A stretch of DNA of 64,000 bases from Bifidobacterium [indicum] DSM 20214 = LMG 11587 (GTDB lineage: Bacteria > Actinomycetota > Actinomycetes > Actinomycetales > Bifidobacteriaceae). The notes under the pieces were generated by a model that saw nothing but the letters and a program-made list of their open reading frames with translations, searched no databases and had not been told where the DNA came from. Both the position numbers and the translations under genes were made by a program. Below are positions 39,139-44,944 of the stretch, piece by piece (position 1 is the first letter of the stretch; each line of letters opens with the position of its first letter). The stretch is from the NCBI RefSeq assembly GCF_000706765.1, contig NZ_CP006018.1, forward strand, positions 992,001 through 1,056,000, in the 5' to 3' direction.

Positions 39139-39290
39139 GTAGCCCATCTCCTTGTACGTGATGCATGCGTTCGCGGGCCATTCCATCCAGCCAACATCCA
39201 TGAGACTGGTGTCCGCGAGCGCGAAGCTTTCTTCTATTCTGCGGCCAGGCAAAGACCAAAACGTGGAAAAACCCCGGCATGTCGAGGTGC

Positions 39291-39319
39291 TTGACATCTC
39301 TCCGGCCTCTACCTATCCT
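39291..39319 (+). promoter_or_regulatory. Promoter of the M-box operon
   Basis: A consensus TTGACA (39291-39296) and a TATCCT -10 (39314-39319) are separated by 17 bases. The predicted start point falls at about 39323-39327, exactly where the riboswitch aptamer begins. The remaining bases between the quinone-reductase start and this promoter (39139-39290) show no gene. Confidence 0.85.
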
Positions 39320-39322
39320 TAT

Positions 39323-39476
39323 GGTCAGTCGGTAGGTGAAGCTACCGCATGGACACGGCCTGCTGCCGCAAAATGGTGGAGACACCCTGCGCAGGTCAAC
39401 AGTCCCCGTCGGATCAAGGCTGGGACTAATGCAGAGCCAAATGCCATGCGAAGCCGAAGCTTGAACGATGACGACC
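39323..39476 (+). promoter_or_regulatory. M-box (ykoK leader) magnesium riboswitch
   Basis: The 5' leader reproduces the conserved elements of the M-box in order: TAGGTGAAGCTACC (about 39332-39345; B. subtilis has TAGGTGAGGCTCC), CATGGACACGG then CTGCTGCC (39360-39367), AAAATGG with a GGTG-GAGA-CACC hairpin, GGTCAACAG (39394-39402), TAATGCAG (39427-39434), AAATGCCATGCG, GAAGC and CGATGACGACC. The P1 ends pair as GGTC-A-GTC (39323-39330) with GACGACC (39470-39476). Binding of Mg2+ is expected to compact the aptamer and switch expression off. The leader is 230 bases long and precedes an ABC transporter operon. Identification rests on recalled alignment with the B. subtilis mgtE element, not on a covariance search. 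Confidence 0.93.
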
Positions 39477-39477
39477 C

Positions 39478-39496
39478 AGTCGGCCTTGCGCCGACT
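39478..39496 (+). other. Hairpin after the M-box (possible expression platform)
   Basis: AGTCGGC (39478-39484) and GCCGACT (39490-39496) form a perfect 7-bp stem with a 5-base loop directly after the P1 stem. It is followed by TTCTG, a poor U-tract. The 3' P1 strand and this hairpin could compete. The operon start codon at 39556 has AAGGGAGG upstream, so both termination and Rho-dependent or translational control are possible. Confidence 0.6.
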
Positions 39497-39555
39497 TCTG
39501 CATGCCATCCTCAAGGTTGCCGACAAAGACATCCGCACCTTGAAGGGAGGCCATA

Positions 39556-41319
39556 ATGCGTCTACAGGCACCAATCATTCGACACACCATCACCCTGAAC
39601 GATGACCGAAAACAGGCCTCCCCTGGCACCAGGATCCTGACCAGTTTCGCGGTTGCATTGGGAGCCATGGCCCTCTTCGGAGCCATCGCCTACATCCTTC
39701 CGGGTTTCTCGGCCCCGATCGGTCCGTCAGGCATACCCTCGCACGTATCGACGGATCCCTCCAACCTGCCCTATTACGCCCTCCGCTCGGTGTTCAGGAT
39801 GTTCATCGCACTGGTGTTCTCCCTGATCTTCGCCTTCGTCTATGGGTTGGCGGCGGCCAGGTCCAAGCGCCTGGGAACCGTTCTGATCCCCCTGCTGGAT
39901 ATCCTCCAATCGGTGCCGATTCTGGGTTTCCTCTCGGCGACCATCTCCATCTGGCTGGTCATCTTCCCCGGGTCGATCCTGGGTGTTGAGGCGGCATCCA
40001 TCTTTGCCATCTTCACCAGCCAGGCATGGAACATGGCCTTCTCCTTCTACAACTCCCTGACCACGGAGCCGTCTGACCTGGATGAGGCGGTCAGAATTCT
40101 GCGACTGACCCGGTGGCAGCGCTTCTGGAAGCTGGATGTTCCCAACTCCATGATCCCCCTCCTCTGGAACTGCATGATGAGCGTGGGTGGGGGCTGGTTC
40201 TTCCTGACGGCCTCGGAGATGATTTCGGTGAACAACCGGACCCTGACCCTTCCCGGCATAGGTTCGTATGTGGAAGAGGCTGCCGGTGAGCAGAACCTGG
40301 GCCGGGTGGGCCTGGCCATCCTGACCATGATCATCGTGGTGGTCCTGATTGATTTCGTACTCTGGAAGCCACTGACCGCCTGGGCCGAGAAGTTCCGGTT
40401 GACCCAGAACCAGTCTTCGGAACCACGCAGGAGCCTGGTGCTGACGGTCCTTCGGCTCTCGGGAATCAACGATCAGCTGGCCCGCCTGGGGCGGCCGATT
40501 TCGTACGCTCTTGACAGGATCACCCGACCCTTGGGCAGGACCGGAGCCCGGTGGAAGGTCCAGAGCAGGAAGAGCCGTGCCGGCGACCTGATTTGGTATA
40601 TCCTTGTCGGTCTGGCCTGCCTCTGGGGCATCTGGGAGCTCTTCGACCTGATCAAAACGACTGTGGGATACGGAGAGGTCGGTCATGCCCTCCTCCTGGG
40701 TTGCCTGACCTTCATCAGGGTGGTTGTCCTGATGGTGATCTGCTCCCTTATCTGGGTTCCGATCGGTGCCATCATCGGTATGAATCCGAAGATATCGCGG
40801 ATCCTCCAGCCTGTGGTGCAGATCCTGGCCAGCTTCCCGGCCAACTTCATCTTCCCCTTCATCACCCTCATCTTCGTGGCCTGGAAAATCGACATCAACT
40901 GGGGAAGCATCTTCCTCATGGCCCTGGGTACCCAGTGGTACATCCTCTTCAATGTCATTGCAGGGGCTTCGGCCATTCCCGATGACCTCCTGGAGATGTC
41001 GCGCAGCCTCAAGCAAACCACCTGGCAGCGATGGAAGACCCTTATCCTCCCCGCCGTCTTCAGCTCTTGGTGCACAGGTGGCATTACGGCAGCCGGTGGT
41101 GCCTGGAACGCGTCCATCGTCTCCGAGGTGGTCACCTACGGAAAGACCGAACTGACCGCCAAGGGACTGGGTGCCTACATCGCACAGTTCACCGCCACCG
41201 GCGACATGACCCGGGTGATGGTGGGCGTGGTCGTGATGAGCGTTTTCGTTGTGGCGGTGGACCGCCTCTTCTGGACGCCCATGCAGAGCCTGGCCCGCCG
41301 GCGCTACGCCCTGAACTGA
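39556..41319 (+). CDS. Fused two-domain ABC transporter permease (NitT/TauT-like) under M-box control
   Basis: 587-residue membrane protein with two complete BPD_transp_1 domains in one chain (about 60-280 and 350-580), each with five to six helices. Each half has an EAA-type coupling loop: D-E-A-V-R-I-L-R-L-T-R-W-Q-R-F-W-K-L-D-V-P near residue 178 and L-E-M-S-R-S-L-K-Q-T-T-W-Q-R-W-K-T near 486. It should form the whole membrane channel for the ATPase encoded next. Database relatives are usually annotated as nitrate/sulfonate/bicarbonate transporters, but no binding protein is encoded nearby and the leader is an M-box. The likely substrate is therefore Mg2+ or a related cation or complex; this is inference. 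AAGGGAGG precedes the ATG. Confidence 0.87.
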   Translation: MRLQAPIIRHTITLNDDRKQASPGTRILTSFAVALGAMALFGAIAYILPGFSAPIGPSGIPSHVSTDPSNLPYYALRSVFRMFIALVFSLIFAFVYGLAAARSKRLGTVLIPLLDILQSVPILGFLSATISIWLVIFPGSILGVEAASIFAIFTSQAWNMAFSFYNSLTTEPSDLDEAVRILRLTRWQRFWKLDVPNSMIPLLWNCMMSVGGGWFFLTASEMISVNNRTLTLPGIGSYVEEAAGEQNLGRVGLAILTMIIVVVLIDFVLWKPLTAWAEKFRLTQNQSSEPRRSLVLTVLRLSGINDQLARLGRPISYALDRITRPLGRTGARWKVQSRKSRAGDLIWYILVGLACLWGIWELFDLIKTTVGYGEVGHALLLGCLTFIRVVVLMVICSLIWVPIGAIIGMNPKISRILQPVVQILASFPANFIFPFITLIFVAWKIDINWGSIFLMALGTQWYILFNVIAGASAIPDDLLEMSRSLKQTTWQRWKTLILPAVFSSWCTGGITAAGGAWNASIVSEVVTYGKTELTAKGLGAYIAQFTATGDMTRVMVGVVVMSVFVVAVDRLFWTPMQSLARRRYALN

Positions 41320-41356
41320 AACAGAACAGACATATTGAAAGCAAAAGGACAAGAAC

Positions 41357-42751
41357 ATGACCAAGATCGAAGTCAAGAACACCGCAACCATGACCGCAGG
41401 CACGGACCGCGCCCCCATCATCCAGGCCGAACAGGTGAACAAGACCTACAAGTCCGACGCCGGCAGTGACCTGAACGTGCTCGACTCCATCGATTTCACC
41501 CTGCACGAGGGAGAAGTGGTGGCCATCCTCGGCAGGTCCGGCGCCGGCAAGTCCACCCTGCTGAGGATTCTGGCCGGTTTGGTTCCCGCAAGCTCGGGCA
41601 AGGTATCCTACCGAGGCAAGGAACTGGCCGGTCCCAATCCAGGTGTCGCCCTGGTCTTCCAGAGCTTCGCCCTGATGCCCTGGCTGACCGTCAAGGACAA
41701 CGTGGAGCTTGGACTCCAGGCCCGCGGGGTGCCCAGGGCCGAACGGGAACGCCTGGCCCTGGCCGCCATCGACGCCATCGGATTGGACGGGTTCGAATCC
41801 GCCTACCCCAAGGAACTCTCCGGAGGCATGCGCCAGCGTGTGGGCATCGCCCGTGCCCTGGTGCTCAAGCCCGATGCACTCTTCATGGATGAACCTTTCT
41901 CCGCCCTGGACGTACTGACCGCCGAGAATCTCCGCCAGGAGGTGCTCAAGGTCTGGTCCGAGGAGGCCGGGAGCATCCGGTCCGTGCTTCTGGTGACCCA
42001 CAACATCGAGGAGGCCGTCGAGATGGCCGACCGGGTCGTCGTCCTGGGATCCCACCCCGGCAGGGTCATCGCCGATGTGCCGATCAAGATGGAGCGGCCG
42101 CGCGACAAGCAGTCCGACATCTTCCAGTCCAGTGTGGACTACCTCTACTCGATCCTTACCGGGCAGAACAACACCGAGGACATCCGCAAGCAGCTACAGA
42201 CCAAGGTCCGCAACAAGGAGGCCGTGCAGAACTCCCTGCGCGACGAGAACATGACCGAGAAGAACCTGCCCGATGCCACTCCGGGTGGGTTGGCCGGACT
42301 TGCCGACGTACTGGTGGACCATCCCAAGGGGATCGATCTGGCCGATCTCGCCGCCCAGCTCTCCTTCGAGGTGGATGACCTCTTCCCCCTGATAGACGCC
42401 GGGCTGATGTTGGGAATCTTCCAGGCCGATAACGGTCACATCTCTCTGACCAGCCTCGGGCAGACCTGGCACGATGCCGACATTCTGGAAAGCAAGGAGA
42501 TGTTCTCGCAGATGCTCCTGGACAGGGTGCCCCTGATCCGGGTGATTGACCGGGCTCTGAGAAACAGCGAGCACGGCAATCTGCACGGCAGCCTTATCCT
42601 GGACCTGCTCCGTTCGCACCACTCCGACAAGGAGGCCATCCAGCAGTTCGAGACGGCCATAACCTGGGGCCGATACGGTGAGCTCTTCGACTACGATGCC
42701 GACGACGACCGGCTGACCCTGACGGCCGAGGATACCCAGGGGGCCGAATAA
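41357..42751 (+). CDS. ABC transporter ATPase with C-terminal AAA-associated domain
   Basis: 464-residue ATPase partner of the upstream permease. The nucleotide-binding domain has Walker A G-R-S-G-A-G-K-S-T (59-67), Q-loop V-F-Q-S-F-A-L-M-P-W, signature L-S-G-G-M-R-Q-R, Walker B A-L-F-M-D-E-P-F and H-loop V-T-H-N-I-E-E-A. Residues about 300-460 form an extra winged-helix-like region that looks like the AAA-associated domain (PF09821-type) seen on some NitT/TauT-family ATPases. That domain may regulate activity, for instance by sensing the transported ion. AAGGA precedes the ATG. It starts 37 bases after the permease stop and ends 4 bases before the first crcB gene. Confidence 0.88.
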   Translation: MTKIEVKNTATMTAGTDRAPIIQAEQVNKTYKSDAGSDLNVLDSIDFTLHEGEVVAILGRSGAGKSTLLRILAGLVPASSGKVSYRGKELAGPNPGVALVFQSFALMPWLTVKDNVELGLQARGVPRAERERLALAAIDAIGLDGFESAYPKELSGGMRQRVGIARALVLKPDALFMDEPFSALDVLTAENLRQEVLKVWSEEAGSIRSVLLVTHNIEEAVEMADRVVVLGSHPGRVIADVPIKMERPRDKQSDIFQSSVDYLYSILTGQNNTEDIRKQLQTKVRNKEAVQNSLRDENMTEKNLPDATPGGLAGLADVLVDHPKGIDLADLAAQLSFEVDDLFPLIDAGLMLGIFQADNGHISLTSLGQTWHDADILESKEMFSQMLLDRVPLIRVIDRALRNSEHGNLHGSLILDLLRSHHSDKEAIQQFETAITWGRYGELFDYDADDDRLTLTAEDTQGAE

Positions 42752-42755
42752 GCCC

Positions 42756-43259
42756 ATGGCTCACGGGCAAAGCAGGGATAGGAACACGGGCGAAGCCGTC
42801 GGAACGACCGGTGGGTCCTCGCCCGAGGGGCCCCGGTTGGGCATGGGCCTGGTGGTCTTCATCGGAGGAGCACTGGGGACCTGGCTGCGCTGGGTTCTGG
42901 GTGGTATTGCCGCCCCTATTGGCGGCTTCCACCCAGGCACCTTCCTGGCAAACATGCTGGCCTGCACCGGCTACGCCTTCCTGACCTCTTACCTGGCCGC
43001 ACGGACCGATATCGCCAGGCAACGGAGGGACTACACCGGTCGGGCCCTGGGCATGGGCCTGTGCGGGGGGCTTTCCACCATATCGACGATGGTGGTCGAG
43101 GTTATCCAGGATGTGATGGAAGGTCATATCCTGGGCTCGTTCGTCTATCTTCTGAGCAGTTTCATACTGGCACTCGCTCTTGCCGCCGTCATGGCTGAAC
43201 TCGGCCAGACGGCGGCGGGGCGTCGTCCGCACGGAACATCAGCAGGTGAGAGCCGATGA
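42756..43259 (+). CDS. crcB: CrcB/Fluc fluoride channel subunit, first copy
   Basis: 167-residue protein of the CrcB/Fluc family, dual- or antiparallel-topology channels that expel fluoride. Four hydrophobic segments follow a ~28-residue polar N-terminal extension; family motifs are G-G-A-L-G-T-W-L-R-W, T-F-L-A-N-M-L-A-C and G-L-C-G-G-L-S-T-I-S-T. The proper start could be nearer residue 30. Tandem crcB copies that form heterodimers are known in many Gram-positives. It is 4 bases after the ATPase gene, so it belongs to the M-box operon. No fluoride riboswitch is seen nearby. Confidence 0.9.
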   Translation: MAHGQSRDRNTGEAVGTTGGSSPEGPRLGMGLVVFIGGALGTWLRWVLGGIAAPIGGFHPGTFLANMLACTGYAFLTSYLAARTDIARQRRDYTGRALGMGLCGGLSTISTMVVEVIQDVMEGHILGSFVYLLSSFILALALAAVMAELGQTAAGRRPHGTSAGESR

Positions 43260-43624
43260 CCACCCTGCTGATTTGCGTGTGCGGAGGTCTCGGTGCCAGC
43301 CTGCGGTATCTGATTGACACCGCCATCAAAGCCCGTTGGGGAGGCCCTTTCCCCCTCTCCACCCTGGTCATCAACCTATCCGCGGGATTCTTCGCAGGCC
43401 TGGTTGCCGATCTCTTTTCTCAATCCCTTATGGGTCCTCAAATCCATCTACTTCTGGCAACAGGACTCTTGGGAGGCTTTTCAACCTTCTCGACAGCCAT
43501 CAACGAGGTGGTGGTCATGCTTCGGGTACAGGCCCGACCAATGGCAATCTGCTACTTCCTGGCCTGCCTGATTCTCCCCATTGCGACCGGCGTTCTGGGA
43601 TACCTCCTGGGCGGCCTTTTGTAG
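43256..43624 (+). CDS. crcB: CrcB/Fluc fluoride channel subunit, second copy
   Basis: 122-residue, four-helix fluoride channel subunit of normal length with V-C-G-G-L-G-A-S-L-R-Y-L, L-V-I-N-L-S-A-G-F and G-L-L-G-G-F-S-T-F-S-T. It overlaps the first copy by four bases (ATGA), so the two are translationally coupled and made in equal amounts, as a heterodimeric channel needs. The inverted repeat at 43641-43659 probably ends the operon. Confidence 0.92.
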   Translation: MTTLLICVCGGLGASLRYLIDTAIKARWGGPFPLSTLVINLSAGFFAGLVADLFSQSLMGPQIHLLLATGLLGGFSTFSTAINEVVVMLRVQARPMAICYFLACLILPIATGVLGYLLGGLL

Positions 43625-43640
43625 AGACACTTTACATTTC

Positions 43641-43659
43641 GGTTTCAGTGCTTGAAACC
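43641..43659 (+). terminator. Probable terminator of the M-box/crcB operon
   Basis: A perfect GGTTTCA / TGAAACC stem with a 5-base loop lies 16 bases after the second crcB stop. No U-tract follows, so termination may be Rho-assisted. Confidence 0.5.
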
Positions 43660-43837
43660 ATACTCAGCGCTAGGGCCTGCTATCTCTCATGACATCCGCA
43701 ACCGCGCCTGGGACGAGTGTCTCTCTGGGTACTGTGGGAAGCGGCACCGTAACCCGGCGGAGCAATACGATGCGACGTTTGCTGTCGCACAGCGACTGGG
43801 GCAAGGAAGAAATCCCCTACCCCAGTGAGTCGTATCG

Positions 43838-44944
43838 CTATTTCTTGCCCCCTGAGGGTATGCCGGTCTTGAACTCCACAATGTCCCCGTCCTGCATGAT
43901 GTAGTCCTTGCCTTCCAGACGCATCTTGCCCTCTTCGCGGACCTTGGTGTAGGACCCATCTGCGGCGACAAAATCCTCGTAGGAGACCACCTCGGCCTTG
44001 ACGAACCCCTTTTCGAAGTCCGTATGGATGGCACCTGCCGCCTGGGGGGCGGTCCAACCCTTGTGAATCTGCCAGGCCCGCACCTCCTTGACGCCTGCCG
44101 TCAGGAAGGTCTGAAGTCCGAGTATGTCGAAGCCCACTCGGGCCAGCTGGTCGAGACCGGACTCCTCCAGACCGGCATCAGCCAGCATCTCTCGGGCATC
44201 AGCCGGGTCCAACTCGGTCAGCTCGGCTTCGAACTGGGCGTTGAGGAAGATGGCCTTGGCGGGGGCCACGGACTCCGACAGCCGCTGCTTCAGGTCATCC
44301 TTCTGAAGCTCGTCGTCATCCAGGTTGAAGACATAGATGAAGGGCTTGGCCGTCATCAGATGGAGGTCATAGAGGTCCTCCTTGTCGATGGTGCCGGCCT
44401 GCGCCGCCTGGTCTATGGTCTGACCCTGCCCCAGAATCTCCCTGGCCTTCTTCACGGCATCGAGGTAGGCCGGCTTGATCTTGCCGCCCCTGAGGTCCTT
44501 CTCCAGCTTGGGGAGCGCCTTGTCGATGGTCTGCATGTCCGCCAGGATCAGTTCGGTGTTGATGGTCTCGATGTCATCGCCCGGGTCCACCCTGCCGTTG
44601 ACATGAACAATGTCGTCATCCTCAAAGGCACGTACTACCTCGCAGATGGCATCGGCCTCTCTGATGTTGGCCAGGAACTGGTTGCCCAGGCCCTCCCCCT
44701 CCGAAGCGCCCTTGACGATGCCAGCGATGTCAACGAAGGTGACGGTGGCCGGGACAATCTTGTCGGTGTGAACCAGATCGGCCAGGACCGGCAGCCGGTC
44801 ATCAGGCAGGGGGACGATGCCCGTATTGGGCTCGATGGTGGCGAAAGGGTAGTTCTCCGCCAGCACGTTGTTCCGGGTCAGTGCATTGAACAGTGTTGAC
44901 TTACCCACATTGGGCAGTCCGACGATTCCGATGGTAAGCGACAT
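43838..44944 (-). CDS. ychF: Ribosome-associated ATPase/GTPase YchF (Obg family, OLA1-like)
   Basis: 368-residue P-loop protein of the Obg superfamily that binds the ribosome and prefers ATP. The G1 loop G-L-P-N-V-G-K-S-T, the S-T-L-F-N-A-L-T switch, the [20 protein letters not shown] motif, the modified G4 N-L-D-D-D-E and the C-terminal TGS domain ([12 protein letters not shown]) are present. ATG 44944 gives the usual [12 protein letters not shown] start; the longer ORF is a shadow. It is convergent with the crcB operon. Confidence 0.97.

Follow-up and report, generated by a model that had tools for sequence, protein, structure and literature searches.

The stretch of DNA analysed here (the window, 64,000 nucleotides from the genome of Bifidobacterium indicum DSM 20214, referred to below as G000) contains a row of genes on the + strand that is headed by a riboswitch for Mg2+ and ends in a pair of genes for predicted fluoride channels. 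The row begins with a promoter-like sequence, TTGACA-17-TATCCT (39291-39319), directly 5' of an M-box (ykoK leader) aptamer (39320-39479), and continues through a predicted hairpin that is likely to be a translational expression platform (39500-39559) into an ORF for a fused ABC permease, in which a domain search found two BPD_transp_1 stretches (39556-41319), and the gene for an ABC ATPase that carries AAA_assoc_C as its C-terminal domain (41357-42751; PF00005 and PF09821). Permease and ATPase both fall below every NCBIfam cut-off shown. The ATPase ORF ends at 42751 and the ATG of crcB1 follows at 42756, which leaves a junction of 4 nt (42752-42755) at the place where most relatives with this gene order have a spacer with a fluoride riboswitch. 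The genes crcB1 (42756-43259) and crcB2 (43256-43624), with the TM3 motifs GLCGGLSTISTM and GLLGGFSTFSTA, respectively, are predicted to encode Fluc-type subunits and share a 4-nt ATGA overlap; an earlier note on this DNA had described crcB genes that overlap each other and lie 4 bases from the ATPase gene, and the ORF coordinates agree with it exactly. Their PF02537 scores (67.4 bits for crcB1 and 72.3 for crcB2) exceed the gathering score of 32.9, the TIGR00494 equivalog cut-off of 80.45 is not reached by either (43.8 and 70.5 bits), and a search of the whole genome with PF02537 gave these two places only, by which additional crcB copies elsewhere in the genome are ruled out.

The M-box scores 99.0 bits with RF00380 (gathering score 44), covers the full model (1-169) and is the only one in the genome, so that the earlier placement of crcB in an M-box-led operon is upheld. 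Among 16 aligned sequences its helices covary, with 13 pairs changed on both sides, 96.0% of base-pair cells that pair and a covariation score of 0.234 versus 0.141 in shuffles; it is a genuine riboswitch aptamer. A sigma-70-like scan of 39150-43900 returned a single site, the one preceding the M-box, and as 1.3 sites are expected in shuffles the promoter call is based on its place directly before the riboswitch and not on the count. Between the ATPase gene and crcB1 the scan recognised no promoter-like site, and no terminator-like site was recognised there on the + strand. The leader hairpin (z about -2.2 to -2.6 in a single-sequence fold) encloses the Shine-Dalgarno-like sequence AAGGGAGG (39542-39549) and the start codon of the permease gene, and its predicted position over both suggests that the expression platform of the M-box acts on translation: at high Mg2+ the aptamer would fold and the permease ribosome site would be hidden, and at low Mg2+ the site would be open. 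The ABC transporter is presumably a Mg2+ or metal importer, a reading taken from the M-box alone. By annotation it is ruled out as the only Mg2+ uptake system, as there is a CorA homologue at G000:C1:765083; MgtE was looked for in this genome and is absent.

Linkage between an M-box and such a transporter is already published for Bifidobacterium breve UCC2003, in which an M-box lies in the expressed 5' UTR of the two-gene ABC transporter Bbr_0406-07 (PMC5746004). That transporter is COG4986 and, by COG, apparently of the same type as the one here; unlike the crcB-linked operon of the window, it is described in a paper whose main text mentions neither crcB nor magnesium by these words. The M-box of Mycobacterium tuberculosis pe20, actinobacterial like the present one, is described in the accessible part of its report as having a translational platform and involving Rho (PMC12810186), but it governs other target genes, and the ribosome-site hairpin here is known from prediction. 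In the literature on bifidobacteria no title was found on a Mg2+-riboswitch operon with crcB, and the available portions of PMC3766115 and PMC12452182 contain nothing on an M-box-ABC-crcB operon.

Fluoride riboswitches in this genome and its relatives

The fluoride riboswitch (crcB motif, RF01734) normally controls crcB, and 16 of the 20 genomes in which these genes are linked have it between the ATPase gene and crcB1; in G000 it is absent, and crcB stands instead behind the operon of a Mg2+ riboswitch. The Rfam model found none in 39150-43850 at E values up to 10 and none genome-wide, and a clade-specific model, R2, gave nothing above 5.3 bits on the + strand of the locus and at most 9.9 bits anywhere in the genome, compared with the 27-72 bits scored by true fluoride riboswitches in relatives. 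Since R2 finds none here yet detects a degenerate copy in the relative G102, a fluoride riboswitch present below threshold is ruled out, and the absence claimed in the earlier note holds for the locus and for the genome alike.

For comparison we used 27 genomes of the genus, G000 included. In 20 of them crcB lies directly behind this ABC transporter; conservation of the linkage, which the earlier note had proposed to check, is thereby established, and the idea that it is unique to this genome is ruled out. In six others crcB does not adjoin the transporter (five carry it at another place, and G092 lacks it), and G027, in which contig breaks hide the ATPase/crcB junction, enters neither count. 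An M-box over the gathering score heads every one of the 20 linked loci. With Rfam (E<=0.001) a fluoride riboswitch was found between the ATPase gene and crcB1 in 15 of these genomes, with a score beyond the gathering score in 11, and the spacer of G102 holds the degenerate one (R2, 27 bits, E 1.5e-7). G000, G082, G015 and G070 have none by Rfam in spacer or genome, and the best R2 match among the four, at 14 bits, is not at the locus. From the ATPase stop codon to the GG..GT core of crcB1, G000 and G082 (which also share the 4-nt gap between the genes) have 112 nt, G015 has 116 nt and G070 has 199 nt, compared with 228-281 nt in the 16 riboswitch-bearing genomes. All 16 riboswitch-bearing spacers have, just 5' of the aptamer, a -10-like hexamer (TAGAAT, TAAAAT, TATACT, TATAAT, or the weaker TAGGAT or TAACAT) without a good -35 partner; a promoter scan of the spacer of one relative found none. 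As to a separate promoter before crcB1, which the earlier note had named as counter-evidence, none is recognised in this genome, although the relatives nearly have one in the hexamer before the riboswitch.

Some individual loci have features of their own. In the crcB loci L123, L124 and L126 (of G086, G096 and G098), fluoride riboswitch matches lie close together on both strands and are apparently divergent. The spacer of G070 contains a strong inverted repeat, CTCTGGgTTCTGC...GCAGAATCCAGAG (L012:4979-5014), at what is by eye the position of the relatives' fluoride riboswitch. G092 lacks M-box and ABC, but close to the same flavodoxin gene it retains a fluoride riboswitch and two crcB genes (L042:2701-6132), followed downstream, by eye, by a BASS-like transporter; either G092 has lost the ABC from this locus or the others have gained it by insertion.

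Among the best 80 of 578 named permease relatives, crcB was seen in the stretches examined only in B. mizhiense, B. mellis, B. apousia and B. xylocopae, and strong M-box matches were found at seven of the 80 named ABC loci, all of them in Bifidobacteriaceae; seven more named ABC loci, from other Actinobacteria, gave weaker matches of 16-31 bits and were left out of the count. Weak M-box-like matches of 16-20 bits lie ~1 kb 5' of the permease gene at L058, L065, L070, L068, L062 and L075 (Nocardia and Tsukamurella). In Bifidobacteriaceae outside the genus, 14 genomes have a PF09821 match above the cut-off and 4 of these have an M-box, the copy of G126 being on another contig, and model R1 gave no extra M-box at the loci of this group. 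At the Bifidobacterium-family loci L031, L034, L037, L038 and L039, where no M-box was found, the ATPase matches come in two parts, with an extra stretch that separates the nucleotide-binding part from AAA_assoc_C. A plasmid search found nothing.

Loss of the fluoride riboswitch

In an operon tree built from the permease and the ATPase, G000, G082 and G027 are together sister to a cluster of 13 riboswitch-bearing genomes (support 100), G015 is sister to the riboswitch-bearing G100 (98), and G070 is on a separate branch (node support 77). From these positions of G000/G082, G015 and G070, at least three losses of the riboswitch can be deduced. Because crcB is preceded by a fluoride riboswitch in all six unlinked genomes of the genus as well, the riboswitch can be taken as the ancestral state at crcB. 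By this comparison of sequences crcB was ancestrally under fluoride control of its own, which was evidently lost in this species, and the loss would have placed crcB directly behind the M-box operon. The Mg2+-only layout, found in 4 of the 20 linked genomes, is by the same comparison a derived state, the outcome of no fewer than three losses. The claim that fluoride export is purposely tied to Mg2+ supply is not supported, given that 16 of 20 linked genomes have the fluoride riboswitch and that the Mg2+-only layout is derived; the arrangement is better explained by loss of fluoride control than by chemical logic.

In G027, the nearest relative, the contig breaks exactly at the junction, so that the loss cannot be dated. 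The genomes that lost the riboswitch are small (1.7-1.83 Mb, versus 1.8-2.3 Mb for the others; Mann-Whitney p 0.003, uncorrected and from only three events). The bee gut is the habitat of the group.

Sequence change and predicted pores of the crcB pair

G000 and G082 belong to the same species. Between them there are 3 amino-acid changes in the permease, 1 in the ATPase, 11 in crcB1 and 4 in crcB2, with dN/dS values of 0.08, 0.035, 0.81 and 0.52 in that order, and the N:S ratio is 15:8 for crcB versus 4:21 for the ABC genes (Fisher p 0.0009). Across the 78 pairs of the 13 riboswitch-bearing genomes, the baseline medians of dN/dS are 0.053 for the permease, 0.024 for the ATPase, 0.177 for crcB1 and 0.123 for crcB2, with crcB1 rising to 0.74 in the closest pair. 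None of these 78 pairs has a crcB N share as high as 15/23; for the two closest, crcB N:S is 6:8 and 12:14, neither of which differs significantly from 15:8 (p 0.31 and 0.25). Stem rates are not raised (0.617 for crcB1, versus 0.597 in the riboswitch-bearing cluster, and 0.439 versus 0.607 for crcB2). The high dN/dS of crcB is partly general; the values suggest relaxed selection on crcB, a suggestion that is weakened by the baseline and unsupported by the long-term stem lengths. The crcB genes of G070 are broken, crcB1 by an in-frame TAG and crcB2 by being divided between reading frames. Both ORFs are intact in G000, G082 and G015, and the genes are therefore not simply dead.

The positions of the two Phe that coordinate F- in each subunit (F80 and F83 of Ec2) are occupied by Ile109 and Met112 in crcB1 and by Phe and then Ala in crcB2, so that neither subunit has both. 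As each pore combines the first site of one subunit with the second of the other, both predicted pores here lack a pair of Phe. In Fluc-Ec2 numbering, the crcB1 sites are M and L in the 13-genome cluster, M and M in G082, and I and M in G000, the only crcB1 among those aligned with Ile at the F80-equivalent site; the crcB2 sites are F and A throughout the cluster and in G000 and G082. Non-canonical Phe sites are thus common to the whole cluster and cannot by themselves be called decay. In the Ec2 homodimer, according to the available parts of two reports, F80M works and F80I, F83M, F83L and F83A do not, and Fluc heterodimers can lose one pore (PMC4969038, PMC5636608); known heterodimers tolerate drift in one pore, as stated in the accessible text of the second (PMC5636608). 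The paired, heterodimeric Fluc proteins La1/La2 of Lactobacillus acidophilus (PMC3755343, seen in part) resemble the present case of two tandem crcB genes of the same family, whose products presumably form one heterodimer, but differ from it in the Phe-box: with I..M in the crcB1 of this genome and F..A in its crcB2, there is no canonical Phe pair in either predicted pore. It is plausible from the sequences that crcB1 and crcB2 work as Fluc.

The genome has one CLC homologue, and each of the 27 genus genomes has one or two. Considered as another fluoride exporter, the CLC homologue of this genome matches chloride CLCs better than the CLC-F structures but is diverged, so that it may be of either the chloride or the fluoride type. 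It lies at G000:C1:97229-98272 and lacks GSGIP and GREGP, the usual CLC motifs.

Interpretation of the Mg2+-only layout

We think it probable that the locus is an M-box operon whose ancestral fluoride riboswitch was lost, with crcB now its read-through tail, and that this came about by loss rather than selection. In the ancestor of the clade, a cassette of fluoride riboswitch and crcB1-crcB2 would have come to sit right behind the M-box ABC operon, placing two sensors in one row. In this lineage, and separately in two others, the spacer would then have lost the fluoride riboswitch together with the -10-like hexamer preceding it. With the crcB1 start 4 nt past the ATPase stop, we infer that crcB is co-transcribed with the ABC genes and that its expression follows theirs by read-through and translational coupling; it would rise in low Mg2+ and be blind to fluoride.

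It seems unlikely that crcB is instead driven, independently of Mg2+, by a constitutive or hidden promoter inside the ATPase gene, with the M-box irrelevant to crcB. Promoters without a good -35 escape a sigma-70-like scan, and the best weak site just 5' of crcB1 is CCGATA-16-TACGAT near 42692 (7/12); against such a promoter, no site reaches the scan threshold from 39320 to 42756, and the 4-nt gap speaks for coupling. Quite improbable, in our judgement, is an adaptive rewiring, in which selection in up to three lineages favoured making Fluc along with the Mg2+ importer, since fluoride does its harm through Mg-fluoride complexes and would matter most when Mg2+ is scarce. All four genomes that lost the riboswitch do keep crcB behind the M-box operon, three of the four have intact crcB ORFs, and the 4-nt coupling in G000 and G082 is tight. 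However, the linkage is older than the loss, so that its retention is the default, and adaptation is spoken against by the broken genes of G070, by the rapid change of crcB between G000 and G082 and by the Ile of G000 crcB1, as F80I kills Fluc-Ec2 in the parts available of PMC4969038 and PMC5636608. Decay or neutral loss is therefore favoured over adaptive rewiring, and most likely a dispensable fluoride response was lost in small, host-bound genomes, rather than Mg2+ control being selected for. That several bee-gut Bifidobacterium lineages independently swapped fluoride for Mg2+ sensing in the control of the fluoride channel, and so adapted to the toxicity of Mg-fluoride when Mg2+ is short, strikes us as very doubtful; if true, a row that once had a Mg2+ and then a fluoride riboswitch would have been reduced to one Mg2+ input.

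Under the preferred reading of riboswitch loss, the linked genomes form a natural comparative series within one operon, with Mg2+ and fluoride riboswitches in series in 15 genomes, a degenerate fluoride riboswitch in one and none in four. With such a series one can test whether crcB comes under Mg2+ control once its own sensor is lost, and whether loss of the riboswitch precedes decay of the genes in host-bound bacteria. When a single genome shows an odd regulatory pairing, this can be the remnant of a deletion.
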